Source: Asparagopsis taxiformis (Eukaryota; Rhodophyta; Florideophyceae; Bonnemaisoniales; Bonnemaisoniaceae). From it: a stretch of DNA of 64,000 bases. Both the position numbers and the translations under genes were made by a program. The notes under the pieces were generated by a model. That model worked only from the letters and a program-made list of their open reading frames with translations, was not told the origin of the DNA and searched no databases. Below, in pieces: positions 1 to 21,659 of this stretch (positions are counted from its first letter, which is position 1; each line of letters opens with the position of its first letter). The stretch lies in the NCBI GenBank assembly GCA_030407315.1, contig JALQPE010001730.1, forward strand, positions 117,759 through 181,758, given 5' to 3'.

Positions 1-184
1 GTAACGGTATGTATTCCTAGACTCGAGCACAGCAGCATCCGTTACAGTATTTCTGAAGAATAGAAGTTTACTGGAAAGGTTTCCAATTTCAGGCTATGGT
101 GTACTTCTCGATAAGGGCAACAGGAGAGAACTGATAGCTGCGATTCGTCCATGTTCTACTATATGTTACAAATGGTCGTGAAAA

Positions 185-3100
185 TCATTGCTTGCCGGAG
201 ATACCATTTGAAACTTGCATTGCATATAGATCCCATGAGAATACTCCTACGAGACCTTGCAAAGTCTTGGGTGGCTCCTCAACCCCACCATAGCCATACG
301 GGTACGCATAGTTCTTAGCATTTTCCTTCACCTCAAAATGATAGCAAGATATGAGCTTCTGACCTTTCTTCTCATATTTGGTCAGCGACACATTATGAAT
401 TGAAGTTTGAAGAGCGGTACTTTCTTCCCGTCCTGGAAGAAGCTTTGCAACCCCCACAATGTTACCGTCTATCATGAGGTCCACTATATCCCCTCCTCTG
501 GGAACTTGTCTTTCGTTTCCATCTTCTGTTACTCTTGCAATACAGTCAATCTCTCCACTGCTGTCTGTATTTCTGGAATCCCCTATCTTTCTCTTCTTCG
601 AATCATTTTTCGTTTTGGGAACCTTTGAATACAATATTTCGGCTACAGCTCGAAGTCTTTCATGAGCAATGCGGAAAGTTCGGGCATTCGCCTCAATTAC
701 AACGCATGATCGAGCGGTTCTCATTGATGCAATAGCAGTTGTTAACGTTCCTGAGTACATATCCAAAACAGAACCTCTTTCCGGACAGAAAGTATTGATT
801 AGCTCAGAAAGTAGGGCAATGTTTTTTTCCTCCGTAAGAACCGGGGCCTTTGAGCCAGGAATAACAAGCTTTTCTTTAGAAACAGGTATATCTGACATCG
901 CAGCGAACCTTCTGCTTGTCTTTGAAGGGACAAAATGGTACGGACTCTTCAGATCAGGTTTGAAACCATCTTTAGAAGCCCCTGGTGCCTTTGCGATCAC
1001 TGCAAAGTCACATGCGTTTTGAGGAAAGTTTTCACCTCTGTGGTGTTGTATGGTTCGAGTATCCTTCATTATAACGAAAGGATACTCTGGACCGGAAAAA
1101 CCAATCCGATGAAGCTCACTGTAAAAACTTTCGAAGTTTCGGAACGACAAAAACGAAAGAAACCATCCACCGGGCTTCAGAACTCGTCTCGCGAACTGGC
1201 AAAGAGATTTAATTTCTTTGTCGTCGATAAAATTGTCGTAGTTTGTGGTACGAAGTGCCTGGGACTTCGGAGTACCATATGGCGGATCGGTAAGGATGAA
1301 GTCAAAAAGGGGGTGGTTATCAGTCCATACCGTTTTGTCGAATTCTTGCCATTTCATCTGATAACAAGCAACTCCCATTTGACTCAAGTGATCAATTTTA
1401 TCTTCTGAGTTATTTTCATCTGGAGCAGATCGCTTTGGTCGAGTATTCAGCCTTTCAGAATTCAAACTTGGAACGTTTCCAGCACAGACAATCTCACCTT
1501 GCTTAGTTCCTGTTTTACCGGGATCAGAAACATGTTCCGATTTAGAAATTTTGCTCTCGGAAGGCTTAACAACTTCATTATGCTCTTGTTCAGACCTAGC
1601 GACAGTTTCTGCGCTGACTTCACCCTTTTCTGTTATTTGTTCTTCACCTCCATCATTCTCATTGGGTAAGGCACCCTCTGAAAGATCACCATCAACTTGA
1701 ACAGAATCATACTCTGAAATGCTCCTATTTTGCTCAATGTATTTCTTTTCCTTCATTGGTGCTGCCTCTGGACAGACTTTTCGGTATTGCTTCAAGAGCG
1801 TTTCAAGAATTTCTGTGTCGTTACCAGAGTTAGCAGAAACTTCTGTATCGAACTTAGTCGATCTAAGAAGGTTATTCTTGATTGCTTCCATGCCAGAGGG
1901 CCATGTTTCCTCCTCGATGAGGGACTCGAACTTCCTAGCCTCCCTCAAAGCATGACAAGCGCTTTCGAATTGCTCTACTGTGGCTTTGTAGGATGCTGCT
2001 TTAAACTTATTTGACCTCGAAATTTCTCTGAGGCGATACAGTGTGTTGATCTGATTTTGCTCTGCGTCCGGCCCCGTAGCGTTCATAAACTTGGTAGCTG
2101 ACTTGATCGATGTAATGTTAATGAACCTACGGAACACCCGACAGTCAACTGTGTGCATTGCAGACACGTAGTCACCAATTTTCTCTCCTGATGAGAGGGG
2201 TTCCGCAAGCTCTGGATGTTCCGAGTTCATTATCTTACCAATTTCATGAATGAATTTTAGTGGTAATCGAACAGCCGTAGTAGCTGTTTGTCTCATAGTT
2301 TTATCTTTGAGATGTGTGCATCCATCATATGCAGAGGCAATTTGCTTTGCAGTTGGTTGCTTCCCGTTCGACATCGTCCTTAACCGATCTGATTCTTCGC
2401 GAAGACCAATTAGCGTATCGTACAACGTGGACTCGATGAAAAAGGATGCATCGTGCTTCCTGTTTTGATGCCGTCCCAACTGTTTCAAAACTTGTAAGCT
2501 ATGACCGCCTTTCAGAATAGTAACGGGCCAGAGAAATGACTCCCATACATCTGGGCTCTCATCCATCAGCTCCAGAATGGCGGTGAGTCTATGCATCCCA
2601 TCTACTACACCATACCAAACAGAACGACCTTCTGCTTTTTCGACTGCCTGAGACTCGGAAAGAGGTTTTCCATCGGATCCTTTCATAGATCGGAAGAAGT
2701 CTACTACGTGGCGTTTCAGACCACCAGTGAGTTCGACTACGATCCCGTTATCGGAACCAGCAATGAAACCTTGACCGTATCTGTCGTTATTTACTCGACC
2801 ATTTCTCGTGTCCCGATCGAAGCTAGAACCGTTGAAAATTGCCTTCAATCTCATAACACCAGATCTTGAAATCTGTCGAACAGAGGTTAGAGGGACACAA
2901 GAACGTGGATCCACTCGCATGTTAGTGGAACCCTCCATAACATCCGCGAAAAGCGCCATGATGGATGTGTCTCGTGGTGTGGAACGAGCATCTTGTGTAC
3001 CGGAAATATTCTTTTGTTTGAAAAAAGAGCTGGACATATCTGTGATAGCCGTTTCCAAGCAAGAATTGTTGGGAGGGTGTATATGCATAGAGTGGAACAC
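185..3100 (-). CDS. ParB/Srx-like domain fused to beta-class DNA amino-methyltransferase
   Basis: A 971-residue uninterrupted frame. Residues about 65-200 look like a ParB/sulfiredoxin-type domain, with the nucleotide-binding signature VVDGMHRLTAI at 165-175. A helical region follows (about 200-450), then an acidic linker (450-570). Residues 580-825 are an amino-methyltransferase: catalytic motif IV is TDPPYG (DPPY at 605-608), LKPGGW follows at 641-646, and the SAM-binding motif I, VLDMYSGTLTTAI, lies at 778-790. Motif IV before motif I is the beta-class order, so the product is N6-methyladenine or N4-methylcytosine. The last 110 residues resemble the C-terminal domain of plant Tnp1/En-Spm proteins (weak similarity). 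ParB-methyltransferase fusions are familiar in bacteria and phages and unusual in a nuclear genome. No introns are needed. The true start could be a later Met. I infer a mobile-element protein; the sequence specificity is unknown. Confidence 0.8.
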   Translation of the reverse strand: MFHSMHIHPPNNSCLETAITDMSSSFFKQKNISGTQDARSTPRDTSIMALFADVMEGSTNMRVDPRSCVPLTSVRQISRSGVMRLKAIFNGSSFDRDTRNGRVNNDRYGQGFIAGSDNGIVVELTGGLKRHVVDFFRSMKGSDGKPLSESQAVEKAEGRSVWYGVVDGMHRLTAILELMDESPDVWESFLWPVTILKGGHSLQVLKQLGRHQNRKHDASFFIESTLYDTLIGLREESDRLRTMSNGKQPTAKQIASAYDGCTHLKDKTMRQTATTAVRLPLKFIHEIGKIMNSEHPELAEPLSSGEKIGDYVSAMHTVDCRVFRRFINITSIKSATKFMNATGPDAEQNQINTLYRLREISRSNKFKAASYKATVEQFESACHALREARKFESLIEEETWPSGMEAIKNNLLRSTKFDTEVSANSGNDTEILETLLKQYRKVCPEAAPMKEKKYIEQNRSISEYDSVQVDGDLSEGALPNENDGGEEQITEKGEVSAETVARSEQEHNEVVKPSESKISKSEHVSDPGKTGTKQGEIVCAGNVPSLNSERLNTRPKRSAPDENNSEDKIDHLSQMGVACYQMKWQEFDKTVWTDNHPLFDFILTDPPYGTPKSQALRTTNYDNFIDDKEIKSLCQFARRVLKPGGWFLSFLSFRNFESFYSELHRIGFSGPEYPFVIMKDTRTIQHHRGENFPQNACDFAVIAKAPGASKDGFKPDLKSPYHFVPSKTSRRFAAMSDIPVSKEKLVIPGSKAPVLTEEKNIALLSELINTFCPERGSVLDMYSGTLTTAIASMRTARSCVVIEANARTFRIAHERLRAVAEILYSKVPKTKNDSKKRKIGDSRNTDSSGEIDCIARVTEDGNERQVPRGGDIVDLMIDGNIVGVAKLLPGREESTALQTSIHNVSLTKYEKKGQKLISCYHFEVKENAKNYAYPYGYGGVEEPPKTLQGLVGVFSWDLYAMQVSNGISGKQ

Positions 3101-4264
3101 AAATTGTCCTACCAGATGTTTGGATAATAAGCAACGAAGCGCCGACGTCGGACTCCATGATGATATAAACGGAATAAAGTTCCTGAATAGTTTATTGCTA
3201 CGCTCCCTGATCCGTTAAAGTTATAGACTCTCAGTACAATAACATCTCTTCACGTATAGCACAGGACAGAGTGTCAACTCTGCAAGGATGGTATTCCAGA
3301 GACTTACATGCAGTGTATTATTGCAAACTGGAAAAATTTGCGGTGCAGGACGTCTAATTGCATCACTTGCTGAATATGTGAAGTAGAAATGAAATGAACT
3401 CTGCTGGCTCAGGGTTCGATACCGAAAGGGAGAAGCAAACAGCCCTTCAGGCCACACGAAGCTGAGCGAATGTATGACAAGCCGGCTCCATCTTGTAGTC
3501 AAGGCCATCACTCCACTCTTCGGTCTGGCTAGCCAGTCAGCGTTGAATATCAATATTGGACTATACATCTGACTGCAGACGTATCTAGAGATCCTTTCTC
3601 AACACATGTGGCTAAAATGAATCACTGAAACCGGTAATGAATTTTGAAAGGTGACCTGAACGACAAGTGTTCTCATGATAATGCTTCATATCAAAATGTA
3701 TTTTTAGTAATCCAATTACAAAATGGTAATATTCAGAACTATTTCTGCTCTATTCCTATTTCACAGCTGTAGAAACCTATCCGTCTGATATCAATATTAG
3801 TCGATAGGTTTCAATCTGCTTCAATTTGAGTTTCCACCGTCACCTCGAAGAGCTTAGTTAGTACATCTTTCATGCATCCATTTTACACCTGGTGAAGACA
3901 ATGGCAACCCTACTCCTCAAACTGCTCACATTTCCCTAGCGTTGTATGTTGCAGTCAGATAAGTAGACCTACTTTGAATTCGGAATTCCATACTGAACAC
4001 CACTGGGAGTTCGCCATATGGACTAGCTTCTTATTGTACTGCTTACCGTTGGAAGCAGCAGAACCTAAATAATATTCTGAAAATATTGAATCAATGAAAA
4101 TTTCTTTGAATTGTTTCCGAGTTTGAATACTTTATCTTTATTTCGTATTCAGGATATTGTTCTGGTTCCAGCACCTAGCGTGAATATAACAGTTGGTTGT
4201 CAAAACCAGTATTTGATATTTGCCATACAACGTTGTATGGTACCATAAACGACTTCGTTTCAAA
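3101..4264. other. Intergenic, no gene seen
   Basis: AT-rich sequence between two divergent genes. I see no coding frame with recognisable protein character, no RNA gene and no clear repeat. It probably holds the promoters of both neighbours. Confidence 0.4.
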
Positions 4265-5260
4265 ATGCGTACGAGGTCTGGTCGCCCAACAACAGCGAAA
4301 AAAGTACCGCGCGGGTCGCTCAAGAAGAGCTCGGCGACTAAGGTACCCGTCCAAGCGCAAAAATCCCTACGCGCTGGATCAAGCAAGGATACATCGCCCG
4401 TTATTCAAGATGAGCGCTCCCTAGAAACTGTTACACTCCCAAGTCAAGCGAAGAGGTCAGTATCTCTCACAATTTCACAACGAAGAAGACTATCGAATGC
4501 CAAAGAGCTCTCAGCTCCTTCTCAAATCAAGAAACTTACTACAAAGCATTGCTGTAAGCTAAAATGCTTCCAAAAGGTTGACCGAGATCAGCTTTGTGAT
4601 GATATGAAGAAAGTTGCACATATGAACCAGAAAGATCGACGCCATTTCTTACAATCTTTGTTTGTGCAAGAGTTTGAAACGTACCGTTACGGTGGAAGGA
4701 GAGTTTGCTACAAATTTCTGAACCAAACATTCCGATTTTCAATTGATATGCAGTGGAAAACGAAAATGAAGCTTATTGGTGCGTCTGCCTCTCAACCAGT
4801 TGAATATCCTGATTCGGAACTAGGTTCTGCTTCTGGTAGCGAAAAGCAACCTGAAATTGATGAACAAGATCAGTTGCACCCTGAGGAATCAGATGATATG
4901 GTCAACATTGATGAACAAGATCAGTTGCGCCCCGAGGAATCAGATGATATGGTCAACACGTTTGTTGCTGTGAAAGGGACAGGCTGTTCAGCTGAGGAGC
5001 CTTTCTGGTTAGCAAAGGTTAAAGGTGTAGAAAGGGGAAAAAAGGAAAGAAATTTAGTCAAGATCACAGTTGAATGGATGGAAAAGAAGGATGGAAATGC
5101 CCTAACGTGCCGTTATGAACCATGTTTGAGAAGGAATGGATGCCCTTGGGTCGACCATATCTCTCCTGATAGTGTTATCCTTGAGATCCCGGAGCTTGTA
5201 GATGATCGGCTGGATTCCTATTCGCGTGACTTCTTGACCAAGTTCCTAGACCTAGACTAG
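4265..5260 (+). CDS. Cys-rich transposon-type protein of unknown function
   Basis: An uninterrupted frame starting at the Met at 4265; an upstream in-frame Met at 4220 would add 15 residues. The N-terminus is basic and disordered. In the middle, HCCKLKCFQKV followed by KKVAHMNQKDRRHFLQSLFV and GGRRVCYKFLNQTF matches the Cys-rich N-terminal module often found in animal and algal DDE transposon proteins (remembered family pattern). A 17-residue acidic unit is then duplicated in tandem (51-bp DNA repeat, about 4856-4957). The C-terminal part, with EEPFWLAKVKGVE and a later WVDHISPDSVILEI, resembles the small BAH-like or beta-barrel domain that often ends such transposon proteins. No DDE catalytic core is seen, so this is an accessory or DNA-binding protein, or a derivative of one. 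It lies tail-away from the ParB-methyltransferase gene. Confidence 0.6.
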   Translation: MRTRSGRPTTAKKVPRGSLKKSSATKVPVQAQKSLRAGSSKDTSPVIQDERSLETVTLPSQAKRSVSLTISQRRRLSNAKELSAPSQIKKLTTKHCCKLKCFQKVDRDQLCDDMKKVAHMNQKDRRHFLQSLFVQEFETYRYGGRRVCYKFLNQTFRFSIDMQWKTKMKLIGASASQPVEYPDSELGSASGSEKQPEIDEQDQLHPEESDDMVNIDEQDQLRPEESDDMVNTFVAVKGTGCSAEEPFWLAKVKGVERGKKERNLVKITVEWMEKKDGNALTCRYEPCLRRNGCPWVDHISPDSVILEIPELVDDRLDSYSRDFLTKFLDLD

Positions 5261-5565
5261 AATATTTCTGTGAACCAATAGCAATGTTTCCAAGATCCAC
5301 ACCTATCAAACGCAGCAGAATTCAATTGCGGTTGGAGTATGTTTGAGCGACAAATGAGTAAAATCAACTTAGGCAGAGGATGGCAGCAACGGGGAACGAA
5401 ATATTTACTGTCCAGTGACGTATAATATAACTGTGCACTACGCAGGAACATCATCAGTTCACGTTGGAAAATTTCACTATGTCTTGGGGATGCAATCTGA
5501 CACGACTACATGTCTGACAGCTTCATCAAGACGCTGCAGCGTGCCCAAAATGTTGATAGCTCGTG
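5261..5565. other. Intergenic, no gene seen
   Basis: No supported gene. The PWP2 fragment to the right lacks the usual C-terminal part of that protein, so the break between the two gene blocks lies in or near this stretch. Confidence 0.3.
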
Positions 5566-6692
5566 TTACCAGTCCTCTCCCAAACCGTCATCGATATTTG
5601 ACTCTTCACTGTAAACGAGTACTCCTTCCATAGAAACCGCAGCCCAGAGCCGACCAGTGGGGCAAACGCTAACACAATGGACTTCTGCTTTCATCAGCTT
5701 TTTTCGTCGAAGTAAACTTTCAGAGCGTGCGCCCGGAAGCGACATTTGATCCGCATGCCGCATCTCGCCATAGTCTACATCCTCCTCACTGTCGTCATTG
5801 ATTGCATCCATCGCTTCCCCGCCGAGCGTCACCTTCTTAGAATTCAATTTATCCAATACTCCGTGAGCAGAAGCTGAACGCACACGTTTGCCACCGCCGC
5901 ACTTAACATAATGCCTGCTCATGAGTTTGGCCTCAACAGGAACAACATGCTTTCGACGCCGGCGACATCCATGCAGAGATCGCGGTGCACCATCAGATTG
6001 TAGGTCGTTATATCGAAGACGCCAGCACAACAAAACCCCATCACAAGAGATAGTAAGAGGGGCGCGCTTACCAACGAAGAGTACAGTGTTGATCGCTTCA
6101 CGATGGCCGTATAAGACGAGAGGTCGAACATGAACGCCCGCCCGGTGATCGGAATTTACTGAGAAGACATGCGTTGTTCCAGACGAATCTCCAACTGCCA
6201 CACGATGTGAGTCAGGGCTCCAAGCTATACAGTTATACATGGTGGAGCAGCGGCGCCGACATTAAAGCCATCGTGTTTGTTAATGGCAGCATGGGAGGGG
6301 ATTGGAGTGAGCGGTACTCACCAGATTTCCACCGTATAATCTGATGCGAATGAAGCGAATGCACCAGAAGGAGATATGCGAGGAGCTGTGATTTTAGAGA
6401 GGCGCAGAGACATGCGAGCGGATATCCGTGCGGATGACGACGAAACGAGGTAGCAGCGAGCGAGCTCGTCGACAAGTAGGATCTGTCCAGTCGTTTAGGA
6501 TTGAGAAATGTGCAAGAGAGGATGGGTGGCCTCGAACGAGAGAGTGCGAGTTCGACCTGCAACGAGATCAATTTGAATGAGACGCGCTTCGGTAGTGAGC
6601 AACAAGGTGTTCCCTGATTTCGTGAAAGTCAAACCACCACCTGTGTATCGGGCACCAAGAAGATGACGAATGGAATAGTTTGGAATACCCAT
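5566..6692 (-). pseudogene. PWP2: Truncated PWP2 (UTP1) U3 snoRNP WD40 protein
   Basis: PWP2 is a tandem WD40 protein of the small-subunit processome, acting in 18S rRNA maturation in the nucleolus. The start at 6692 gives MGIPNYSIRHLLGARYTGGG, like the PWP2 N-terminus. WD-repeat pieces follow (IAWSPDSHRVAVGD, LYGHREAINTVLF, SCDGVLLCWRL). The frame then jumps straight to the C-terminal landmark GVLDKLNSKKVT and CPTGRLWAAVSMEGVLVYS, skipping most of the central WD repeats. An in-frame TAA follows HISQS near 6496. A possible intron donor (GTGAGT) follows the DYTVEIW codons near 6317. The terminal 150-200 residues of PWP2 are absent. The losses, the stop and the deletion indicate a decayed copy, not a functional gene. 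Confidence 0.7.
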
Positions 6693-7151
6693 TTTGAGGA
6701 AGATGGGCGCTGAGAACAAAGTTGTTGGTGGTTTGCGAATGTAGCGAACTGAGGTCACGGAAGGATGTCTATCAGGCCACTGTGAGAATGTTGCTGGTGT
6801 TACGACTTCGCCGACGGATTTGAAATAAATTAATTTCGTTGGAACGCCCGTCCACGTGGCCACGGGTACAAAACAAGTGTTGCCAACTCGACAGATCATA
6901 TCAAGAATCGCACTTGACCGGGCGTGATCTTCCTTTACAACTTGGCCATCATCTTGATCTCTTTGCAAACTACTGAAGCTTGCTCCACTTCTAGGTTATG
7001 CATCAACAGCTCGAAAACCTTTCCGATTCATCGGCTGATTCCTTTCATTCTGCACTTTCCATCGCCGAACATCCTTCTATCCCACCTTCACCAACCTTAC
7101 CATCCAACACAACCTTTCCGCCTCATCACACACCGCTCTCTGCGTCCAGGT
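6693..7151. promoter_or_regulatory. Divergent intergenic region between PWP2 and TPS starts
   Basis: The two gene remnants begin head to head 459 bp apart. This looks like an original divergent promoter carried along with both fragments. No specific promoter element was recognised; the call rests on position only. Confidence 0.3.
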
Positions 7152-8345
7152 ATGGGTGAATATGCTGGCAGTATGTCCAATTTGAGGGCATTGCTCAAGG
7201 TTCCGACCGATGATCAGCCACAGGCTCCTAGCCCATCTGGACCGCCTACTTTGCGCAGGAATGGTAGTTCGAATTCTGTGCTGGCAGATTTTTCAAAGCG
7301 GGTTGGTGTTTTGTCGAGGTCCATTTCATTTCTTTCGCCAGCTGGGAAGACAGTCACGCGTTCGAACAGTATATTATCGTTGCTGAGCGGAATACCGACA
7401 GCTTTGCGGGATTCAACAAGTACCGAAAGGCATCTTGGACTGGATGGTGGGGAAGACAAGGTAATGGCAACATTGACGTCGATGGATCCAAGTCGCACGC
7501 CATTGAGCTAACTACCTCTGTTGCCGACTTCCCCATATGGCGTATCAGCGTCACATTGCCCGCCAACCGTCGTATTGAGTACAAGTACGTCTGCATGCCC
7601 GGCAATAAACCCATCGATGCAGGCGCTCAACAGCCCCGCCAACCGCTTAACTCAGATCCGCAATCTTCCGATCCTGACATTGTTCCAGACGCGGACTTCT
7701 GGGAGCAATTCAAAGAAAACAGCTCCGTAAAAACTGAAGGCAGCGCGACCATGGTTGTTGATGGCCAATGTAATGTTTTCAACGACAACGCAGAAGCTCG
7801 CGCTGCAAAAGCTGCTTTCACCCTTGCAGGGCATTCTCGCGAAAAAGAACTCAATACAGAGGCCCAAACCACCCCGACAGTCAGTCCCGTCTCATTCACC
7901 GAACCAGAACAGTGTTCTGGTGTCACGTCATTATCGTCATGTACCGATTGCTAATAACCGCAAAGAAAGATGCGGATGGAAACTGGTCGTTTACCTGGGA
8001 TAACGATGATTTGTATCTCACCTGCACCGGTTTCAAACCGAAGTAAGTTACTTCGCGGGCTCGACGAGCGCAGGATTTCCCCACTCTGGGTGGGAATTCT
8101 CAATACTATAGAGCCCATCATCCCTCGAGAACGCAGTACGATTGAGTCCAAACTTTCCAATGAATTTAATTGTGTCTCCATCTTCATCACGTCCGAGACG
8201 CGGACCAAGTTCTACCAGGGCTTCTGCAAGGGAACCCTATGGCCGATCTTCCACGTGATCACAGATGTCTATGGAAACGACAGCAAGATGAAGTGTTTCG
8301 CTCGCGAGGCATGGCACGCTTTCGTTGCGAGTGACACGGTTGAGG
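7152..8345 (+). pseudogene. CBM20 plus GT20 trehalose-6-phosphate synthase fragment
   Basis: Pieces in different frames form the N-terminal part of a trehalose-6-phosphate synthase (UDP-glucose plus glucose-6-phosphate to trehalose-6-phosphate). From 7152 a Ser-rich leader is read (MGEYAGSMSNLRALLKV). A second frame (about 7430-7650) has a CBM20-like half: AIELTTSVADFPIWRISV and ANRRIEYKYV. A third frame (7921-8043) gives the GT20 start, KKDADGNWSFTWDNDDLYLT. After a 4-nt duplication at 8041-8047, a fourth frame gives KLSNEFNCVSIFIT, FYQGFCKGTLWPIFHVITD and EAWHAF, hallmark GT20 positions. It then stops resembling GT20 at about 8345 and abuts a different glycosyltransferase. The catalytic C-terminal two thirds are missing. 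Fused CBM20-TPS proteins are known from algae. Clearly a dead fragment. Confidence 0.75.
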
Positions 8346-9205
8346 TGTTGAAAATTCTGGAAGACAAGTTTTCCAATGAAACAATTCTGTACATCGAACG
8401 CGCGTGCGTACAATTTGGCGTTCAATAGAGCCACCTTTGATGTCTTCTTCAAGGTGGACTGTGATTATGTCCTGTCGCTCGAGGCTATTGTTAGTCACAA
8501 GCTGCCTGCGACGCAGCCGTTCTTCTATACTGGCTATTACATCAACGCGCGCGATGCAAATGAAATATATCTGAATGGGGCTTTGCTCGTTTCACAGCGT
8601 AATTTCTGGAATGTCGGTGGTTATGATGAACGTATACGCACCTATGGTTACGATGATGAAGACCTTTACCGTCGGCTGGTTTCTACTGGTCTCAAGAGGC
8701 GTAATGTCAGCCATGATCATGTCTCTCATATTGGGCATGAAGATGCATGTCGTAAACAGGAGGGTGTCAAATTCCCACGAGCCCAGATTGATCTCAATTC
8801 ACTTGTGCTGGAACAGTTGAATGACCCCTGGACGTCACGTAGTCACGGGTCAGTATATGAGCCTATTGATGACAACAAGTCGCGTTTGGTTGCGACATAC
8901 TTCCCTCCAGACTTGTTTACGCTTGTTGGCGATGATGAAATCGAAGAGACGTGGCGTACAGCACTAGGGAGACGACTGTGTGACGACTTTGAAATCCCAT
9001 GGGGTGTGATTGGTTGCATGAAGACAAAAATGCTAGAGAGACTTTTGACAAATATGAATGACCGTAAAGCAAGGGCCAATGTGGACGAGGTGATCAAAAG
9101 GAACATTCGGCCGCGTGTGATCATGATACATGTGCAGAGCGGATTGGGGAATCTTCTTCGAGTGATGGGCAGCGGGTTGGCGTCTGCAGCGGCGATGAGC
9201 GAGCC
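8346..9205 (+). pseudogene. DxD glycosyltransferase fragment (GT2/GT7C-like)
   Basis: The frame is clear from RAYNLAFNRA onward (about 8406). FKVDCDYVL carries the DxD metal and sugar-nucleotide motif. LNGALLVSQRNFWNVGGYDE followed by RTYGYDDEDLYRRL matches the galactosyltransferase C-terminal pattern (GT7C-like) found in GT2-type enzymes, which act in Golgi or cell-wall glycan synthesis. At the end, RPRVIMIHVQSGLGNLLRV is the usual start of a second domain in algal relatives, but it breaks off after about 15 residues, where IPK sequence begins. Both ends are therefore truncated: an N-terminal junction with TPS and a C-terminal junction with IPK. The acceptor substrate cannot be told from the sequence. 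Confidence 0.65.
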
Positions 9206-9817
9206 ATTTCCATGTCGCACGCCGGTCAAAAGGTCATCCCCGCCACTTTCAATCTCGTGCCAATCGAGCCCAAACCAAAGCATTCCAAGTCTTCCGATTC
9301 CGATTTTGAACAGGCCGGCGGTCACGACGGCAGCTTCCACAGCGATGGCGCTATACTCGTCAAGAGAGTTGAAGAGCGCGAAGTAAACTTTTATCGAGCC
9401 GCTCAACGCGGCGAGTGGCCCGCTCGCTTAATCCCCGCTTTCAAAGGCACAGTTGACGATGGAAAGGCCATCAAGATCGAGAATCTCACCTATGGCTTCG
9501 AGAGACCCAGCGTCATCGGCCTCAAAATGGGTGTGCAAACCGTTGAGGACGACGAATCCAGCTTGTTGAAAAGAATCATAATGAATGCGCTCGACCGTGT
9601 CACCGGCACCAAAAACGCCGGTTGCAGACTGGAGGGTCTCAGTATGTATCGCACTCTGGAAAATAAACGCTTGAAAGGTATCAAAACGCAAATTCATTCC
9701 ATCTCCGCTCATATGCGTTTGTCCTTGCAAGATGTGCTAACTTTTTTTCTAATCGACGAATCAGGTCAGCGAAGTGGTGTCGCGCTACGTTTTCAGCTCG
9801 CCATCGCGGATATTCTT
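9206..9817 (+). pseudogene. Inositol polyphosphate kinase (IPK family), 5' part
   Basis: This part carries QAGGHDGSFHSDGAILVKRV, EVNFYRAAQ, AIKIENLTYGFERP and the signature PSVIGLKMG at about residues 99-107 from the Met at 9212. The family signature is PxxxDxKxG; here the Asp is Gly (GGC), which should kill phosphotransfer. AGCRLEGLSMYRTLE matches the next conserved block. An 87-nt intron is predicted at 9678-9764. The frame runs to CTT at 9815-9817 and continues, after removal of the TIR element and one TT, with CGC CAA TTC at 21662. IPK enzymes phosphorylate inositol tris- and tetrakis-phosphates. The gene is broken by the insertion and by the active-site change. Confidence 0.75.
9678..9764 (+). 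other. Predicted spliceosomal intron in the IPK gene
   Basis: GTATCA at the 5' end, a TGCTAAC branch-point-like motif about 25 nt before the end, a T-rich tract, and TCAG at the 3' end. The length (87 nt) is a multiple of three, so the frame is the same spliced or unspliced, but the encoded residues do not fit the IPK family. Confidence 0.55.
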
Positions 9818-9851
9818 CGTCTGTGTTTTCGGAAGTGGACGCGGACGTCCA
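9818..9851 (+). repeat. Left terminal inverted repeat
   Basis: Starts CGTCTGTGTT and ends GCGGACGTCCA. It pairs with 21626-21659, with two mismatches. Confidence 0.85.
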
Positions 9852-9940
9852 GTCTCTCTAGTACGGGTCCTAGTCGGCCCCGAGATTTACTAGAACAAAT
9901 GAACGTCCGCGTCCGAAAAAAAATAAAAATTTTTTGGATG

Positions 9941-10241
9941 CGGACGTCCACTTTCTCTAGTACGTTCGGCGGAATACTAGGACCCGACATCCACTTTCTC
10001 TAGTACGTTCGGCGGAATACTAGGACCCGACATCCAATTTCTCTAGTACATTCAGCGGAATACTAGGACCCGACATCCAATTTCTCTAGTACATTCAGCG
10101 GGATCCTAGGACCCGACATCCACTTTCTCTAGTACGTTCGGCGGAATACTAGGACCCGACATCCACTTTCTCTAGTACGTTTGGCGGAGTACTAGGACCC
10201 GACATCCAGTTTTTCTAGTACGTTTGGCCGGATACTAGGAC
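9941..10241 (+). repeat. 43-bp minisatellite, seven copies
   Basis: Seven head-to-tail 43-bp units start at 9941, 9984, 10027, 10070, 10113, 10156 and 10199, with a partial unit at 10242-10252. Each contains ACATCCA or ACGTCCA, TCTCTAGTAC and ATACTAGGAC. The motifs are the same as in the TIR neighbourhood, so this is a subterminal array of the TIR element. Confidence 0.85.
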
Positions 10242-10373
10242 CCGACATCCAGTATACAATATATCAGCAAAAACCCGGAGGGAAGAAATTACAGCGGATG
10301 GTAAATTAAGGGCCCATATCGGACCGTATTTTATTCTCTCATTTACGAAACTGCTCGTATACAATACGTCTCT

Positions 10374-10515
10374 CTAGAATAGGAAATACATATCTGGTCA
10401 GAATAGGAAATAAATACCCGGTTAGAATAGGAAATACGTATCAAGCCAGGATACGGAATATGTATCCAGCTAGAATATGGAATACGTATCCAGCCAGAAT
10501 ACAAAATACCTGTCA
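10374..10515 (+). repeat. About 24-bp tandem repeat, six degenerate copies
   Basis: The consensus resembles GAATAGGAAATACGTATCCAG (with drift), repeated about six times with a period near 24 bp. It lies inside the TIR element. Confidence 0.7.
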
Positions 10516-10539
10516 GCATACCGTCGATCACCCATCTCC

Positions 10540-12330
10540 CTCACTATCGCGTTCTCCCTACCATCCGAACGCCATGCACCACCATCCGCACATACTTCAA
10601 GAACCCTCACGACCTAGATTACAAAAAATCTGCTCCTTCCCAATACCATCCCCGCTTTCCTCGACACCACCCCAGCCCATTAAATCATCAAGACATGAAA
10701 CACGAACATGGTCAGCAAAATCTTACACGACTTGAAACCCACTCTTACTTCTATCGTATGCCTGAAAATATACACATACCAGAAACACCTCACAGCTTCA
10801 TTCCCCATCTTCCTAGATCCCTTCTTCACTCTCCCTGAGTCCTGCCATTCCTGCTTCACCACTCCTGCATCACATACACAACATCAACCCCAACAGTCAG
10901 ATTCAAAAGCAACGCTTACCACGCCAGATATCTTAGAAAATCCCTTACTTACCTCTCATCCATCCTACACACAATACAAACCATGATCCAAAAACCTTGC
11001 AATGAATAATCAAAGTCAGCAGTCCATATCTTCGCAAAACAAGTCTTGGCGCTCAATGAAACTTACCTTCTGTCATCACCATTCCAGCATCACCTGCATA
11101 AAATCGAAATCAACCACAACAGTCGGACTCAAAACCCACATGTCCCTCTCAGCATACTCTCAAAACTTCCGCACTTTCCTTCGCTCGACACAATACGCAC
11201 CATGACTGGATAAGCTTCCAATGAATAAATATCGCATTAACTGCAATAGTCAGATTCGAAACAAACACTTCTCTCGATGCATACCCTCAGAACTCACTTA
11301 CTCTCGTTTCATTCTACACACAATACATACCAAAAGTCGAAAATCTCACAACCAACAAATGAAGTCAACATTCCGCATCTTCGCACCACCGGACTGCGCG
11401 CTAAATGCAACTTACCTTCCGTCATCACCATTCCTGCATCACCTACAAAAAATCGAAATCAACAACAACAGTCGGACTGAAAACCCATGCTTCCCTCGCT
11501 GCATACCCTCAGAACTCACTTACCCTCGTTGTATCCTGCACACAATAGAAACCATAAGTCAAAAATTGTACAAAAAAATGTAGTCAGCATTCCATATCTT
11601 CGCGCAACTTAACTAGGCGCTCAATGTAACTTACCTTCCGTCATCACCATTCCAGAATCACCTACACAAAATCAACATCAACCACAGCAGTCAGACTCAA
11701 AACCCACATTCCACTCACTGCACCCCTCAAATGCTCACCTACCTCCTTTCCACCCTTCAGCAAATATGCACCATGACTCACTAAGCTCCCAATAAATAAA
11801 TATTGCATAAAAGACGACAGTCACATTTAAAACAAACACTTCCCTCGCTTCATACCCTCAGGACGCACTTAACCTCTTCATCTCGTTGCATCATACAAAC
11901 AATACAACCAATAATTCACAAATCGTGCAACGAAAAAATGTAGTCAGCATTCCATTTCATCGCGAAACCCGTCTTTCAGCTCAATGAAACTTACCTTACT
12001 TCATCACTATTCCTGCACCACCTATACAACATCAAAATGAACCAGAACAGTCAGACTAAAAACCCATGCATCCCTTATTGCACACCCGCGAGACTCACTT
12101 ACTTACCTGCCTCCCATGGTTCACAACATGCAAACCATGACTCACGAAGCTTCTAATGAATCAATATCGCATCAACGACAACAGTACGACTCAAAACACA
12201 CGCTTCCCTCGCTGCATACTCTCCAAACTGGCATACTCACCGTCGTTCTATCCTCTACACCAAACAAAGGAAACACGACCAAAGAACCTCAGCCAGTGAC
12301 GGCGGAGAAGTGGAATTCCACAGGTTAACC
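10540..12330 (+). repeat. G-poor degenerate tandem repeat field
   Basis: The plus strand is strikingly poor in G. A block reading CTTACCTTCCGTCATCACCA followed by a CTGCATCACCTACA-type stretch recurs near 11064, 11412, 11631 and 11991, with weaker forms near 10843. The spacing is about 220 or 350 bp. No protein is supported here; the open frames reflect composition. Confidence 0.6.
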
Positions 12331-12804
12331 TGCGGCGTCGACTGGACAGCTTTCAACGTCAGCTTAAGTCCTGCTGTGCATACTCCATATCATCGCCGGT
12401 ATTGAGATTAATAATGGCCCAAGCCATGGTCTCTGAACTCCCGAATGATGAGATCCGGATCGAGAACATCGGAATGGTATAATCATATATATCACAATCC
12501 ATTTGCTTCCCTTAAATGATCCCTGTAATATCCACTGTAAAGCACAAACTTATTCCATGAAGTTCGCAATTAATATAATTTTATTATTTCAAATGAATTA
12601 ATTGAAAATCCATCTCCCACGGCGGTCATTCATCCTTCCAAGCGCACGTTGCCAGCAAAATGTGTGACCTAGCGGTGATGATTGATCGCTCAGGCACATT
12701 CCACCATTGGGCTGCCAGAAGTGAGCACAAAACTGATACCCACAAAACCACGAGAACATTACAAACGAGGTCTCGAACGCACATTTGGAGTACAATATAA
12801 ATAC
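12331..12804. other. Interior of TIR element, no gene seen
   Basis: Mixed-composition sequence between the G-poor field and the inverted repeat. I see nothing I can name. Confidence 0.3.
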
Positions 12805-14926
12805 TATACAACAAACTCTACTCGCTATCTCAGACGACGCGGCTCACAAGTGGCGTAGTCCCAATTTTCCGTAACGCCTTTCCTGATGCTTAAAAGTAAA
12901 AAACACGTCAAAACGTATATCAGAAATGAGTGCGAGAGTTTTCTGCACAGGAGATGCTGAGCCACCAAATTGATTTTTCGGAAATTTTAGAATTTCTGGG
13001 CTGGCCAGCAATGCAATCGAGCTGGACATCCACCGGACGTCCATTTCAGGTTGATCGTGAGAGAGTAGGGCGGGACCATGATGAAACAAGGACCAAGACC
13101 TGTCCCTGACGTGTTGAGCCTGAAATCGACCCTTCGTAAGACGCGATTTTGGCTTACAGTTAGTGCTTACAGAAGCCAGTGATGACCCCGGTCGGGGCAG
13201 CAGCCGGTTCCTGGGGCCGTTGTGGCCAAATTAGACACCTTGATTTGAATTGAAATTTGGGCTATTCTCAAAAACATGCACATGTGAACATGTTTTTGAG
13301 ATGGGGGTCTGCCGTACGGCACAATCGACCCGCCCAAATCGATGATTTTTCACAATTTTTTTCTGCCCGAAATTTTAGAATTTCTGGGCTGGCCAGCAGT
13401 GCAACCGAGCTGGACATCCACAGGACGTCCATTTCAGGTTGGTCGTGTGCTGCCCACATCCATGCATTGCAGCAACTAAGCAGGCGGGCTCACTACTCAT
13501 ACAAAGTGCACGGAATATGAGTAACGTGATGTGTGAGTGTTGTTTGTCGTGAGGATGTAAGGTGGGACCATGATGAAACAGGGAAAAAGATGTCTCCCTA
13601 GCATAACTTGGGCTTGAAGCCTGGAATCGACCCTTCGTGAGATGTGGCTTTGCTTACAGTTGGTGCTTACAGAAGCCAGTGACGGCCCCGGCCGGGGCAG
13701 CAGCCGGTTCCTGGGGCCGTTGTGGCCAAATTAGACACCTTGATTTGAATTGAAATTTGGGCTATTCTCAAAAACATGCACATGTGAACATGTTTTTGAG
13801 ATGGGGGTGTGCCGTACGGCACTTTCGACCGCCCAAATCGATATAATTTTGCAATTTTTTTCTGACTGAAATTTTAGAATTTCTGGGCTCGCCAGCAATG
13901 CAATTGAGCTGGACATTCACCGGACGTCCATTTCAGGTTGGTCGAGTATTGCACATGGATACAGTTTTGCAGCTATTTCTCAGCCCAACATTTTAGAATT
14001 TCAGGGCTGACCAGCAATGTAACCGAGCCGGACTTCCACTGGACGTCCATTTCAAGTTAGGCTAGTGCTGCACATTTGCTCGCATCGCAGCAACTAAGCA
14101 AGTGTTGACAGCACCGAGATGCCATGCAGACAAGGGGGAATCGGCTGCAAACGGCTTCCCTGGTCGGCGGCTGGATGTCTGGATGTGAATGGCTGCAAGC
14201 ATGGAAATCTTGCTACCGCACAGCGCATACACACTGCAGCAGCACATCACTGACGCATGCGAAAGTTGGGTGCTGCAGTGCGTGGTTGTTTGTGTGTTTG
14301 TGTGTTTGTGTGTGTATGACGAACCTTGTGGTATCCCTAGGCGTGCACTGGTTCAAAAAGTTTGGACTGCCCCATCGGTCGTACTTTGGCGCATTTACAT
14401 GCATCGGAGAACGACCAAGGAGGTAGAGCAGCAATCGCTGTTGGCTGAGCGTCCAAACTGGAGGGCTTGGGGCAATGGTTCTATAGCAGTCATTTATAGG
14501 ACGCCCACCGTTGATGACTGAGATCCACGGTGGGTTTAGTATTCATGGTGTTGTCCTGCATTGGCGGACGTCGAAGACGAGTACTTCCGATGTGAAGGCA
14601 TGGATGAGGCCAGCAGGAACGTTTCTGCAAGATGGGCGTGAGTGGGTAAGTGAGCGGGGAGGGGCCGCTCGGGGCGCTTGGTAGCTTCTGGGGCCGTTGT
14701 GGCCAAATTAGAATCAAGCCTATGTCCGGCGGACGTCCTGAATTGCTTTATTTTTTGGGCTATTCTCAAAAACATGCACATGTGAACATGTTTTTGAGAT
14801 GGGGGTGTGCCGTACGGCACTTTCGACCGCCCAAATCGATGTATTTTTGCATTTTTTTTCTGACTGAAATTTTAGAATTTCTGGGCTCGCCAGCAATGCA
14901 ATTGCGCTGGTCATTCACCGGACGTC
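12805..14926 (+). repeat. Left arm of giant inverted repeat
   Basis: Reverse-complement partner of 17551-20218. The inner edge is sharp: it ends in CACCGGACGTC at 14926, facing GACGTCCGGTG at 17551. The arm is built of sub-units carrying GGACGTCCATTTCAGGTTG, a GAAATTTTAGAATTTCTGGG block and a 34-nt hairpin. The outer edge fades near 12805. Confidence 0.8.
13267..13300 (+). repeat. 34-nt near-perfect hairpin, first of seven copies
   Basis: CTCAAAAACATG pairs with CATGTTTTTGAG over 12 bp around a 10-nt loop that is itself nearly palindromic (CACATGTG). Further copies lie at 13767-13800 and 14765-14798 in this orientation, and at 17679-17712, 18720-18753, 19217-19250 and 19718-19751 in the other. 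Confidence 0.85.
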
Positions 14927-17550
14927 CATTTCCATTTCAGATCTACTGGTTGCACTAGGCCTGAAAGTGTTTCTGGATAGGGCCGAATAACGACCTGGGC
15001 AGCACGCACTGCGTAAGATGATCTGTGTGATGCAGACTGCAAGGATTTCTATGGTGATTCTGGCTGGGGAATGTGGTAAGCTTGATTGTTGCGTGGCTTT
15101 GTATCTCCTTGCCTGCCATTTTGCTTGGATATTTACACGAGCGATCAAACCGAAGACGCCGACTCGGCACAACTACCAACTCTCCTAGCTTCGAGTCAGC
15201 GCCATCTAATTGCAACTTGTGACACTCAAGACGAATACGTTGTGCTGATCTCTGCAATGAAAATTGAGTTAGTGCTGCAGTTCTTTTGGTCGATGCCAAT
15301 ATGCAGGGATACTGTTTACACCTTTTGGGAGTCAAGAAGTTCTCAGATTGCAAATCAAATCAGATCATGGTAGAATATCTGACTTTTCTCTCTTCCCTTC
15401 ACCACATCTGCATCCGGAGCTGAGCCAAGCTGAGCTGGAGGGAACCCGGCCGCTGACCCCTGTCATTCTCATAAAAATCTTTAATGCAATACTATTCGTG
15501 TATGGTAATGTAAGTGCTAATGAAAATGTATACAAGTCTAGAATAAACGTTGCAGTGGTTCTTTGTAGCTATCGATACTTGCTAAAAATCTGTAGCTTTT
15601 GCTTCTCGCATGGACGAGTTGCAGTCTTTGTGTTTGTTTCATTTCTGCCACAAACGAGAGGCAATCAGGGTCTGTGTGCACATAGAGAATGATTTAATAT
15701 ATGCGCTCATTGCCGTCGTAGATACTTTTAACAATGGCCAGTACGTTTCTCTCGGCCGCCGCCGGGTACGGTCGGACTGAAAGATCGGGGAGATGTGTGG
15801 AGAGTAGTGTTTGGATAGAGACGAACGTTGTGATGGATGGAATGGTGATGATTTCATGCTGAAGCGATGGGAGATGGATGGATATGGTTGAATGAAATCT
15901 AGTATTCCGAAGGAGGCCTTTTCTCGAGGAAGAGGCATTATATTCTCACAAAGCATGTAGATACTGGTTTCCAGTTTGGTATGCTATTGTAGCTCAATTC
16001 ACATCTTATCTACACGTACGTATGGAGAGAGATCCAAGTGTGCGTGGCACAAGTCCAACGGTGAAACAACGCAGTATGAAACTACCACAGATAAGGCGGC
16101 GTACAAAATCCTCGACTCAAGGCAGCTCTCAGGCTTTCGTGAGCACCGACTTCGTTCCACCAAGATGTTGCGGAAATATGTGCTGGTCTAACTTGATACG
16201 ACCATTGGACAGTTTTGCTCTCTAAGCAATGAGCGAAAAATCAATGATTGCGCGTGTCGTCGGTACGGTCTTGTAATGTTGGCTCAACCAATAACATCTA
16301 ACGTTGAGTTATCCACCCTCCGCCGTGTCGTGTCGTAAATTTGCACAGAAAATTTGTTTCAAATCTTTGCTCCAATTATCAGCTCAAATACGGCATTGAT
16401 CTCCAGCTTCATCTGGACAGAAACACCGATCGCTCGATGTCTGTCTCAGATAAACCGCAGTCAAACGCCATGCGGAAAGTTTCATCGCTTCCCGTTGCGA
16501 CTGAATCTGCAAACGCCACACAAAAATTTGCCCTTTCCGCGTCCGGAACGAACGCCGACTACATGTCGTCAGGTTCCTGATCGACTGGATCGATGGAGCT
16601 TGCTCTGCAGGAGAGCAGGACAGGCGGTTTGTTATGCCTGGACAATTTCCATACCGATCTCCCTTCTTGAGTGCAAAATTACGAGTCTAGAAATTGACCT
16701 GCATCGGCTGCTGTATCACATCTGTGCTAAGGATTGATGATACCCGTACCGCTGAGAAATTGCAGCTCTGGTAACGTGGGGATGATGTGCTGAACACGCA
16801 GAACGCTGATCCATAACGGGACTGCTTCATAGGCATAGTACGGAATGTATTGAGACAGCCCAAGCGAATTCAGGAGGGAGCACCAGGGCAGTGCGCGGTG
16901 ACTCAGCAGATACCAGTGGTGAGTGGTCTAAATGGGGCTACACACGAGTTTGTCAATGAACAGTCTAGTTTAGTTTGGAAATGTGTCGGATGGATGGTAT
17001 GTTGTAAATGTCGACAGATTTGAGGAAGCGATAGAAGCAATCAGCACCGTGTAGTTGCATCAAGGCTTTAGTGGCCATTGCTAGAGAACTTTCTCCAATG
17101 CCCTTATTGCAGGATGGGCAGAAAACCCGGCCGGTTTCGAGATTGAAGAATTCATTGCGCAGATTGAATGAATGCAATTGACGGAGAATGCAGAAGTATA
17201 CAATGGTATCGTTTTGCAGGGTGACGTAGGGGAAACATGTTGGGCTTGTTGGAAATGCTGAGAGCGATGATGAGATCCAGTCGTTTCCGTCGTAGATGGC
17301 AGTGCTTATTTTCTGCACGGCTAGCTTGTCTGCTGGGCGACTGGGCGGTATTGGCGTACGATGAAGCGGGACTGGTGGTGTTTAAATGACATTTTTTGTT
17401 TGAAGATGGATGTATGTGTGCGACTAGAATGTAGTAAGAGCATGAAAATGTTTATGTTTGATGGGCGTCGCATGTTGGGGGACTTTATGTCGTGTGGGGC
17501 AATAATGTATCAGGTATTTGAAGCAGACAGCAATCGCTTGAGCGCATATA
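14927..17550. other. Spacer between the inverted-repeat arms
   Basis: 2.6 kb of mostly non-coding sequence. The only frame with some protein character is 16965-17318 on the minus strand, listed separately. Confidence 0.4.
16965..17318 (-). CDS. Hypothetical protein with a CxxC motif, possible remnant
   Basis: A 117-residue frame with plausible protein composition and a CPSCNKG segment. It might be a degraded fragment of an element protein. I do not recognise it, and it has no supporting context apart from lying in the spacer of the inverted repeat. Confidence 0.25.
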   Translation of the reverse strand: MQKISTAIYDGNDWISSSLSAFPTSPTCFPYVTLQNDTIVYFCILRQLHSFNLRNEFFNLETGRVFCPSCNKGIGESSLAMATKALMQLHGADCFYRFLKSVDIYNIPSIRHISKLN

Positions 17551-20218
17551 GACGTCCGGTGAATGACCAGCGCAATTGCATTGCTGGCGAGCCCAGAAAT
17601 TCTAAAATTTCAGTCAGAAAAAAAATGCAAAAATACATCGATTTGGGCGGTCGAAAGTGCCGTACGGCACACCCCCATCTCAAAAACATGTTCACATGTG
17701 CATGTTTTTGAGAATAGCCCAAAAAATAAAGCAATTCAGGACGTCCGCCGGACATAGGCTTGATTCTAATTTGGCCACAACGGCCCCAGAAGCTACCAAG
17801 CGCCCCGAGCGGCCCCTCCCCGCTCACTTACCCACTCACGCCCATCTTGCAGAAACGTTCCTGCTGGCCTCATCCATGCCTTCACATCCACATCATAATC
17901 CTCTGCTGAGCTGTTCACCTTGGACGCTCACTGGAAGTACTCGTCTTCGACGTCCGCCAATGCAGGACAACACCATGAATACTAAACCCACCGTGGATCT
18001 CAGTCATCAACGGTGGGCGTCCTATAAATGACTGCTATAGAACCATTGCCCCAAGCCCTCCAGTTTGGACGCTCAGCCAACAGCGATTGCTGCTCTACCT
18101 CCTTGGTCGTTCTCCGATGCATGTAAATGCGCCAAAGTACGACCGATGGGGCAGTCCAAACTTTTTGTACCAGTGCACGCCTAGGGATACCACAAGGTTC
18201 GTCATACACACACAAACACACAACACACAAACAACCACGCACTGCAGCACCCAACTTTCGCATGCGTCAGTGATGTGCTGCTGCAGTGTGTATGCGCTGT
18301 GCGGTAGCAAGATTTCCATGCTTGCAGCCATTCACATCCAGACATCCAGCCGCCGACCAGGGAAGCCGTTTGCAGCCGATTCCCCCTTGTCTGCATGGCA
18401 TCTCGGTGCTGTCAACACTTGCTTAGTTGCTGCGATGCGAGCAAATGTGCAGCACTAGCCTAACTTGAAATGGACGTCCAGTGGAAGTCCGGCTCGGTTA
18501 CATTGCTGGTCAGCCCTGAAATTCTAAAATGTTGGGCTGAGAAATAGCTGCAAAACTGTATCCATGTGCAATACTCGACCAACCTGAAATGGACGTCCGG
18601 TGAATGTCCAGCTCAATTGCATTGCTGGCGAGCCCAGAAATTCTAAAATTTCAGTCAGAAAAAAATTGCAAAATTATATCGATTTGGGCGGTCGAAAGTG
18701 CCGTACGGCACACCCCCATCTCAAAAACATGTTCACATGTGCATGTTTTTGAGAATAGCCCAAATTTCAATTCAAATCAAGGTGTCTAATTTGGCCACAA
18801 CGGCCCCAGGAACCGGCTGCTGCCCCGGCCGGGGCCGTCACTGGCTTCTGTAAGCACCAACTGTAAGCAAAGCCACATCTCACGAAGGGTCGATTCCAGG
18901 CTCAGGCTCAATACGCCAGGGCGAAGTTTTGGTCCTTGTTTCGACATGCTCCCACCCCACTTTCTCACGACAAACACTGCTCATCCATCATGCTGCACAT
19001 GCTACGTGCACTTCGTATGAGCAGTGGGCCCGCCTGCGTGGTTGCTGTAATGCGTAGATGTGAGCAGCATACGAACAACCCAGAATGGACGTCTGGTGGA
19101 TGTCCGGCTCAATTGCATTGCTGGCGAGCCCAGAAATTCTAAAATTTCGGGCAGAAAAAAATTGTGAAAAATCATCGATTTGGGCGGGTCGATTGTGCCG
19201 TACGGCAGACCCCCATCTCAAAAACATGTTCACATGTGCATGTTTTTGAGAATAGCCCAAATTTCAATTCAAATCAAGGTGTCTAATTTGGCCACAACGG
19301 CCCCAGGAACCGGCTGCCGCCCCGACCGGGGCCGTCACTGGCTTCGGTAAGCACTAACTGTAAGCCAAAATCGCGTCTTACGAAGGGTCGATTCCAGGCT
19401 TCAAGCCCAAGTTATGCTAGGGAGACATCTTTTTCCCTGTTTCATCATGGTCCCACCTTACATCCTCACGACAAACAACACTCACACATCACGTTACTCA
19501 TATTCCGTGCACTTTGTATGAGTAGTGAGCCCGCCTGCTTAGTTGCTGCAATGCATGGATGTGGGCAGCACACGACCAACCTGAAATGGACGTCCGGTGG
19601 ATGTCCGGCTCAATTGCATTGCTGGCGAGCCCAGAAATTCTAAAATTTCGGGCAGAAAAAAATTGTGAAAAATCATCGATTTGGGCGGGTCGATTGTGCC
19701 GTACGGCAGACCCCCATCTCAAAAACATGTTCACATGTGCATGTTTTTGAGAATAGCCCAAATTTCAATTCAAATCAAGGTGTCTAATTTGGCCACAACG
19801 GCCCCAGGAACCGGCTGCCGCCCCGACCGGGGTCATCACTGGCTTCTGTAAGCACCAACTGTAAGCCAAAATCGCGTCTTACGAAGGGTCGATTTCAGGC
19901 TCAACACGTCAGGGACAGGTCTTGGTCCTTGTTTCATCATGGTCCCGCCCTACTCTCTCACGATCAACCTGAAATGGACGTCCGGTGGATGTCCAGCTCG
20001 ATTGCATTGCTGGCCAGCCCAGAAATTCTAAAATTTCCGAAAAATCAATTTGGTGGCCCAGCATCTCCTGTGCCGAAAATTCCCGCGCTCACTTGTGATA
20101 TACGTCTAGACGTGTTTCGCACTTGTACGCATCAGGGAAGGCGTCACGGAAGGTTGAGACTACGCTACTTGTGTACCGCGTCGTCTGAAATAGCGAGTAG
20201 TGTTTGTTGTATAGTTGT
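17551..20218 (-). repeat. Right arm of giant inverted repeat
   Basis: Inverted copy of 12805-14926. It is about 550 bp longer because one sub-unit of about 500 bp (19217 and 19718 hairpin region) is present twice here and once in the left arm. The two arms still match at near-identity over long stretches around the inner edge, so the duplication that made them, or later gene conversion, is fairly recent. Confidence 0.8.
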
Positions 20219-20399
20219 GGAGTATGCGTCTGGTGGTTTGTAAAGCTTGCAGAACGGGATAGGGATGTGGGTGGCTCCATTTTATGAATACATGAATACA
20301 AATATTCAGGGTTGACGAAGCGGAAAGGCATACGCTCATACATGTATGAGTTTGCATAGTGGAGAAAATATTTACATCGAAATTTACATGGAAGAGATG

Positions 20400-21625: not shown

Positions 21626-21659
21626 TGGACGTCCGCGTCCATTTCCGAGAACACAGACG
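21626..21659 (-). repeat. Right terminal inverted repeat
   Basis: Reverse complement of 9818-9851 except at two positions. It is followed by the flanking TT at 21660-21661 and then by resumed IPK coding sequence. Confidence 0.85.

Follow-up and report, generated by a model that had tools for sequence, protein, structure and literature searches.

A predicted ParB-methyltransferase fusion encoded within a multicopy DNA transposon of the red alga Asparagopsis taxiformis

Closest described systems

Proteins that join a ParB-like domain to a DNA methyltransferase have been described in algal transposons and in a bacterium. In Ectocarpus, the 21.5-kb transposon Sola1-1_Ec32 encodes a ParB-like and an N6A/N4C methyltransferase domain in one protein of 1,104 amino acids (aa), on the opposite strand to the transposase, and a self-marking role has already been suggested for it (PMC12477816). 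The same source cites similar ParB-methyltransferases from green- and red-algal transposons, the latter in Bostrychia (Petroll et al. 2025). Bacillus cereus Bce_0392 fuses an adenine methylase to a ParB domain that is reported to nick DNA nonspecifically (PMC5512222). The subject here is a gene of this type in a 64,000-nucleotide stretch of Asparagopsis taxiformis DNA (contig JALQPE010001730.1, positions 117,759 to 181,758; the window), together with element A, a ~14-kb DNA transposon of a eukaryotic nuclear genome of which the gene is almost certainly cargo.

As in the algal accessory genes, both domains of the element A protein lie in one polypeptide within a DNA transposon bounded by terminal repeats. 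Compared by description, the two systems share a ~1,000-aa protein with both domains, a large DNA transposon, and the suggested role; they differ in that the gene here has 971 codons, sits in ~14 kb, and lies on the same strand as a DUF7869 gene. Bce_0392, compared in the same way, shares the ParB-adenine methylase fusion but is bacterial. Given that the Ectocarpus ParB-methyltransferase is in print (PMC12477816), the fusion type is not new. The gene adds a confirmed case to the known ParB-methyltransferases of algal transposons, and its value lies in the new variants found around it. As a whole, the explanation favored here, an accessory gene of element A through which the transposon marks its own DNA, is judged probable though by no means assured.

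Work on algal transposons has raised, as an open idea, that transposons mark themselves by bacterial-type methylation, and this genome makes the idea testable through its numerous near-identical copies, its different carrier types, and 2,333 candidate binding sites. If it is true, selfish DNA would have put prokaryotic ParB and restriction-modification parts to new use as editors of the eukaryotic epigenome.

Domain architecture of the fusion protein

A sequence-only reading of this DNA had proposed that a single open frame joins the two domains, and this is what is found, with the following layout in window coordinates (dN, nonsynonymous substitutions per site; pLDDT, predicted local distance difference test score).

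185..3100, minus strand: the element A gene for the ParB-methyltransferase; 971 codons if read from GTG, with ATG at 3035-3037 as the likely start
2450..2935, minus strand: predicted fold of ParB/sulfiredoxin type, covering about aa 56-217 and including DGMHRLTA at 2579-2602
1931..2431, minus strand: helical part where the ParB DNA-binding domain would sit, about aa 224-390
1400..1705, minus strand: disordered linker, about aa 466-567; pLDDT mostly <50; dN 0.49-0.77 against diverged copies L061-L063
626..1393, minus strand: beta-class amino-methyltransferase domain, aa 570-825; DPPY at 1277-1288
203..493, minus strand: unassigned C-terminal domain, about aa 870-966; folded in the model; dN 0.33-0.39 against L061-L063

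The frame stays open upstream of the GTG, which is discounted because GTG starts are a convention of the bacterial code. The ATG is the probable translation start, making a protein of ~950 aa likelier, since homolog P0001 begins at the residue matching M22. Sequence comparison identifies the frame as a true gene: a chance open frame is ruled out by low dN against L061-L063 and by 17 database relatives that are 31-70% identical, lie on short contigs, and in 16 cases carry the Pfam methyltransferase (7,991 candidates scored).

The Pfam model N6_N4_Mtase (PF01555) matches aa 600-813 with an E-value of 6.2e-14 (52.9 bits against a curated cut-off of 26.7) and is matched in 17 of the 18 family members scanned. 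In beta-class amino-methyltransferases, DPPY precedes the motif that binds S-adenosylmethionine (SAM). Here, DPPY stands before the SAM-binding motif GTLTTA (734-751) on the coding strand, an order that indicates the beta-class arrangement and bears out the class assigned earlier. In structure comparison, the methyltransferase model best matches CcrM and other bacterial enzymes forming N6-methyladenine. The bacterial N6-adenine methyltransferases CcrM, M1.HpyAVI, and M.BceJIV share the fold of the catalytic half at ~20% identity, and none of them is, to our knowledge, found with a ParB half; the bdelloid rotifer N4-cytosine methyltransferase (8s9m) is likewise not known to us to be joined to such a half or encoded by a transposon. 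The CcrM-like half would most likely methylate adenine and less likely N4 of cytosine.

The N-terminal half, which contains the DGMHR motif, had been read as a ParB/sulfiredoxin-type fold, and structure prediction agrees. The model of aa 41-469 has a pLDDT of 85 and a predicted template modeling score of 0.82, and rows 1-18 of 50 in VIA-align include ParB, Noc, PadC, KorB, and sulfiredoxin (498 chains aligned). VIA-align re-aligns only candidates supplied by Foldseek, and plain Foldseek on this half is weak, the best match being ParB 6sdk at E 0.047 with none at E <= 0.001. Profile searches returned no ParB model, either among the 17 Pfam families listed across the 18 family members or in the NCBIfam scan of the same 18. 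A DndB profile is matched weakly in 4 of the 18 (best E 0.0084); DndB is a family that we take to have the same DGxHR feature. Bacterial ParB, Noc, and KorB thus share the fold predicted for this half, but their sequences are too distant from the element A protein for Pfam. The assignment as a ParB/sulfiredoxin-type fold is a prediction that leans on VIA-align.

The proposed likeness of the C-terminus to Tnp1/En-Spm proteins (DUF8039) is not supported by the profile search: the C-terminal 111 aa have no Pfam match up to E 10, in a library whose inclusion of the DUF8039 model was not checked. As a separate observation, the sole match to the Pfam ParB_N model in the A. taxiformis genome is locus L001 (C1526:6082-9339), on a 14.7-kb contig that is possibly bacterial or organellar.

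The carrier transposon

The gene had been placed among eukaryotic transposons. The eukaryotic context and the transposon link stand, while "among" understates the relation, as the gene belongs to one of them, element A.

1..22848: element A, which carries the gene and is interrupted by element C; recognized by copy boundaries, terminal repeats, and a CTGC target duplication
22746..22848, minus strand: terminal inverted repeat at the right end of element A
9820..21659: element C, a high-copy element nested in A; contigs C947 and C1581 lack C, joining 9819 to 21660

Element A extends from C1609:114798, 2,961 bases left of the window, to window position 22848, and measures ~14 kb without element C, whose first 2.2 kb occur in at least 23 other copies at 100% identity. 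Its two ends carry an identical 47 bases beginning AACACTGATTTCC, with similarity running over ~103 bases, and flank searches show that its copies have sharp common ends. Target duplications of 4 bp (CTGC, ATCA, and TTTG) flank three of the four copies read at both ends, and six distinct left flanks were found in the seven copies for which this side was read. The gene is present full length at least 18 times, with 98-100% identity, on 18 contigs (40 of 291 candidates scored, 58 rows). Contigs C1581 and C837 have the same left flank, and C1570 and C1571 the same right flank; some contig pairs probably represent a single locus, so 18 overstates the number of independent insertions. The full frame is open in 3 of the 18, the window copy included.

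Sola elements are characterized by 4-bp duplications and a DDD transposase in a review (PMC10741241). Element A, with 4-bp duplications in three of four copies, fits the Sola type by duplication, size, and cargo, in a comparison that leaves the transposases out. En/Spm (CACTA) transposons make 3-bp target duplications, and an En/Spm carrier for the gene is not supported, those of element A being 4 bp.

Two side observations concern the copies themselves. Many near-identical copies among loci L036-L053 differ by short frame-breaking changes, part of which may be assembly error. At C481:29208-43412, a relative of the gene forms a tandem array, seen as four matches of 75% identity at a regular 4.3-kb spacing.

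Relatives, origin, and selection

Contamination by bacterial or phage DNA, or a recent lone transfer, would account for domains typical of prokaryotes and for the similar methyltransferase part in phages, where among 20 of 65 records listed the match is limited to aa 599-838 at 24-28% identity. This explanation is made extremely improbable by the number of full-length copies and contigs and by the eukaryotic long terminal repeat (LTR) elements in the window; frames resembling WD40, galactosyltransferase, and inositol kinase proteins and a Gypsy element also lie nearby. In addition, no relative was confirmed in 84,980 GTDB prokaryote genomes (29 stretches) or in IMG/VR (28 stretches) by pattern scans built from the ParB part of the close alignment, which reach close relatives only. 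Contamination, raised earlier as an outcome that would undo the proposal, was rejected on the copy structure, that is, full-length copies on 18 contigs with sharp common ends. A phage or prokaryote source of the whole protein was rejected as well, because phages, in the 20 records listed, match the methyltransferase part only, with none of the 65 records covering 80% of the query, and because the scans, which reach close relatives, gave no confirmed one.

A methyltransferase phylogeny, which the sequence-only reading had proposed, comprises 25 rows, several of them overlong before column trimming, and is drawn with a midpoint root and three phage rows as the sole outsiders. The 19 rows that lack a SET domain form one set (96/96) and three SET-fused rows another. 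Since the tree is unrooted and the nearness of SET and phage rows is not resolvable from it, it accommodates one methyltransferase capture as well as two.

Near-identical copies say little about selection, and five diverged copies (L060-L064) were compared instead. Against L061-L063, dN is 0.14-0.19 for the ParB fold and 0.10-0.13 for the methyltransferase, the lowest of all parts, while synonymous substitutions per site (dS) reach 1.9 or lie beyond saturation for both. The linker changes ~3-8 times and the C-terminus ~2-4 times faster than the domains. L060, alignable over aa 22-482 only, agrees (ParB dN 0.13), and L064, with nine stops and a ratio near 0.6, looks decayed. Low dN at high dS indicates that both domains were kept by selection for most of the family history; purifying selection thus acts on both in diverged families of this genome.

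Proposed role of the ParB-methyltransferase

On the reading preferred here, the ParB half, comprising a predicted nucleotide-binding fold and a helical, putatively DNA-binding part, would recognize or load onto element A's own DNA, and the CcrM-like half would then methylate adenine, or less likely N4 of cytosine, on that DNA. The most likely pay-off would be that marked copies escape host silencing or can still be expressed or mobilized. Which DNA is targeted, which base is modified, whether the enzyme works in the cell, and what the element gains are what we infer; with these, self-marking of the element by its ParB-methyltransferase is reasonably probable.

Several observations weigh against it. 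No palindrome of >=10 bases was found twice within element A, which leaves the ParB half with no candidate target beyond the terminal repeats. One copy, C2895, has unequal flanks (TTAA and CCGC). The frame is broken in 15 of the 18 full-length copies in this assembly, some of the breaks perhaps reflecting homopolymer sequencing error, and the diverged copies L060-L063 contain one to three stops each. Among the 16 homologs with a methyltransferase, 11 keep [DN]PP[YF] and one has DPSY, but in four the catalytic motif is altered (EPPP, EPPS, NPPP) and the R of DGxHR is lost; homolog P0010 has also lost this R while keeping NPPY. The four degenerate homologs are what would be expected if the protein served to bind DNA and its methyltransferase were inactive or not needed. 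This is distinctly improbable for the gene in the window, which retains DPPY and whose methyltransferase is under stronger constraint than any other part of the protein.

A different scale of action is suggested by the 2,605 first-look methyltransferase candidates in the genome, of which all of the best 150 scored were matches. Such a supply could provide the enzyme in trans and mark host DNA broadly, altering host expression. A genome-wide role of this kind is improbable, as the attached ParB DNA-binding half points to a targeted enzyme.

The immediate neighbor of the gene bears on a third alternative. Immediately downstream and in the same orientation, just beyond the left edge of the window, lies an 863-codon frame with DUF7869 (E 5.5e-49), the probable transposase of element A as suggested by its position and by acidic residues picked out by eye. 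At least 7 of 16 high-scoring non-SET methyltransferase matches have a DUF7869 match ~4.3 kb off in divergent orientation, and at least 7 of 26 A-type places, selected by hand from the 58 rows of the gene-copy search, have a same-strand match no more than 10 kb away, where 0.02 per site is expected by chance; the counts for other groups are at least 1 of 91, 1 of 15, and 1 of 28. All are lower bounds, because they draw on the best 150 of 2,605 methyltransferase and the best 150 of 502 DUF7869 candidates, and the window gene's own DUF7869 neighbor is itself unlisted.

The fusion might, then, be part of the transposition machinery, with the ParB half nicking or positioning the ends and methylation timing the reaction, and no epigenetic mark being laid. 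Some bacterial elements are timed by hemimethylation. The physical pairing of methyltransferase and DUF7869 genes in two families favors such a role, as does the nonspecific nicking reported for the ParB domain of the Bacillus ParB-methylase (PMC5512222). Weakly opposed to it, most of the scored DUF7869 matches (best 150 of 502) have no scored methyltransferase nearby, and the pairing may not be obligatory. We regard a purely mechanical role as unlikely next to self-marking of element A.

ParB-like genes and palindromes of element B

Element A is itself inserted in a second element, B, where it splits a minus-strand gene, one half of which lies at window 22849-24604 and the other immediately to the left of A. 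The parts of B considered here are the following.

22849..24604, minus strand: first ParB-like (IDGGHR) gene, interrupted by A; other half left of the window
25071..25554: array of four palindromes AATAATACC[C/G]GGTATTATT, three exact and one with a mismatch, at 118-bp spacing
26428..29391, minus strand: second ParB-like gene, of 987 codons; in this copy the frame breaks ahead of the dioxygenase-like end
29640..29839: two further palindromes with two mismatches each, upstream of the second ParB-like gene

The 3.9 kb of B left of A recur at 19 other places at 99% identity and at a twentieth in two pieces; with 25 of 928 candidates scored, B thus has at least 20 other copies. Part of its gene content can be read from C285, where B is unsplit, including a 1,174-codon frame (L058 5388-8909) that matches a phrog ParB profile with its ParB-like start (E 6.2e-5), N6_N4_Mtase (E 1.2e-13), and SET (E 2.2e-5). 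Among 10 of 126 plasmid records listed, this SET protein has a methyltransferase match only. A second SET type, ~43% identical to that of B, is more abundant, accounting for 14 of the 30 methyltransferase loci L002-L031 (L015-L019 and L023-L031), and 11 of these 14 reach the SET domain. The ParB-methyltransferase-SET fusions of such high-copy elements, in the second type with a presumed ParB-like start, could potentially place DNA and histone marks from one protein.

The C-terminal ends of the two ParB-like B proteins, also encoded at C285, both show HTD, GDxYH, and R by eye and look like 2-oxoglutarate dioxygenase, an impression for which Pfam gives no support. ParB-like proteins with dioxygenase-type C-terminal residues were seen at window 26428-29391, at L032 4648-5796, and in P0018. 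Used as a database query, the second B protein retrieved one protein, 99% identical.

The 15.9 kb of C285 contain eight exact palindromes AATAATACC[C/G]GGTATTATT, all outside the five frames counted as genes and forming three clusters, within which neighbors are separated by 91 to 118 bases. The window contains three exact and three imperfect ones, against a mean of 0 in 100 shuffles. Genome-wide there are 2,333 exact palindromes and none of the reversed control pattern, and among 71 loci an exact palindrome occurs only in L032, L058, and L059. Palindrome arrays were also noted at L058 2997-9345 and L059 3133-3387.

Intergenic arrays in an element that encodes three ParB-like proteins invite comparison with parS, and the palindromes are candidate parS-like sites by analogy; they may instead serve terminator or structural roles. 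A tentative and on balance doubtful proposal is that B is a transposon with ParB-parS-like self-recognition, in which the SET fusion and the two ParB-like proteins with their dioxygenase-like ends would read arrays of 19-25-bp palindromes and write, perhaps also erase, DNA and histone marks on B. Were this true, the element A ParB-methyltransferase would be a simpler cousin of the same strategy. The SET fusion and the palindrome arrays may go beyond published systems, and the parS-like arrangement is the newer lead, one open to testing.

Other genes and elements in the window

Element A contains further open reading frames (ORFs).

4220..5260, plus strand: ORF resembling the N- and C-terminal parts of the element A DUF7869 protein, middle absent (BLASTP E 9e-14, 1e-13)
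5566..6240, minus strand: WD40-repeat ORF (PF00400, E 5.4e-6)
8376..9386, plus strand: galactosyltransferase-like ORF (PF02709, E 1.9e-8)
9212..10003, plus strand: inositol polyphosphate kinase-like ORF (PF03770, E 2.1e-10, aa 87-186)

The PF03770 match falls left of the element C insertion point. The stretch with the WD40, galactosyltransferase-like, and inositol polyphosphate kinase-like frames is complete in at least five other contigs, two of which probably represent one locus, and these three frames are possibly captured host genes.

To the right of element A, a Gypsy-type LTR retrotransposon with a chromodomain (32070-38963) is apparently nested in a large element. The ORFs flanking it, at 30099-31466 and 42218-44635, look transposase-like by eye and have no Pfam match. 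Window 61695-62327 holds a fragment of a Copia-type reverse transcriptase (RVT_2, under the curated cut-off).

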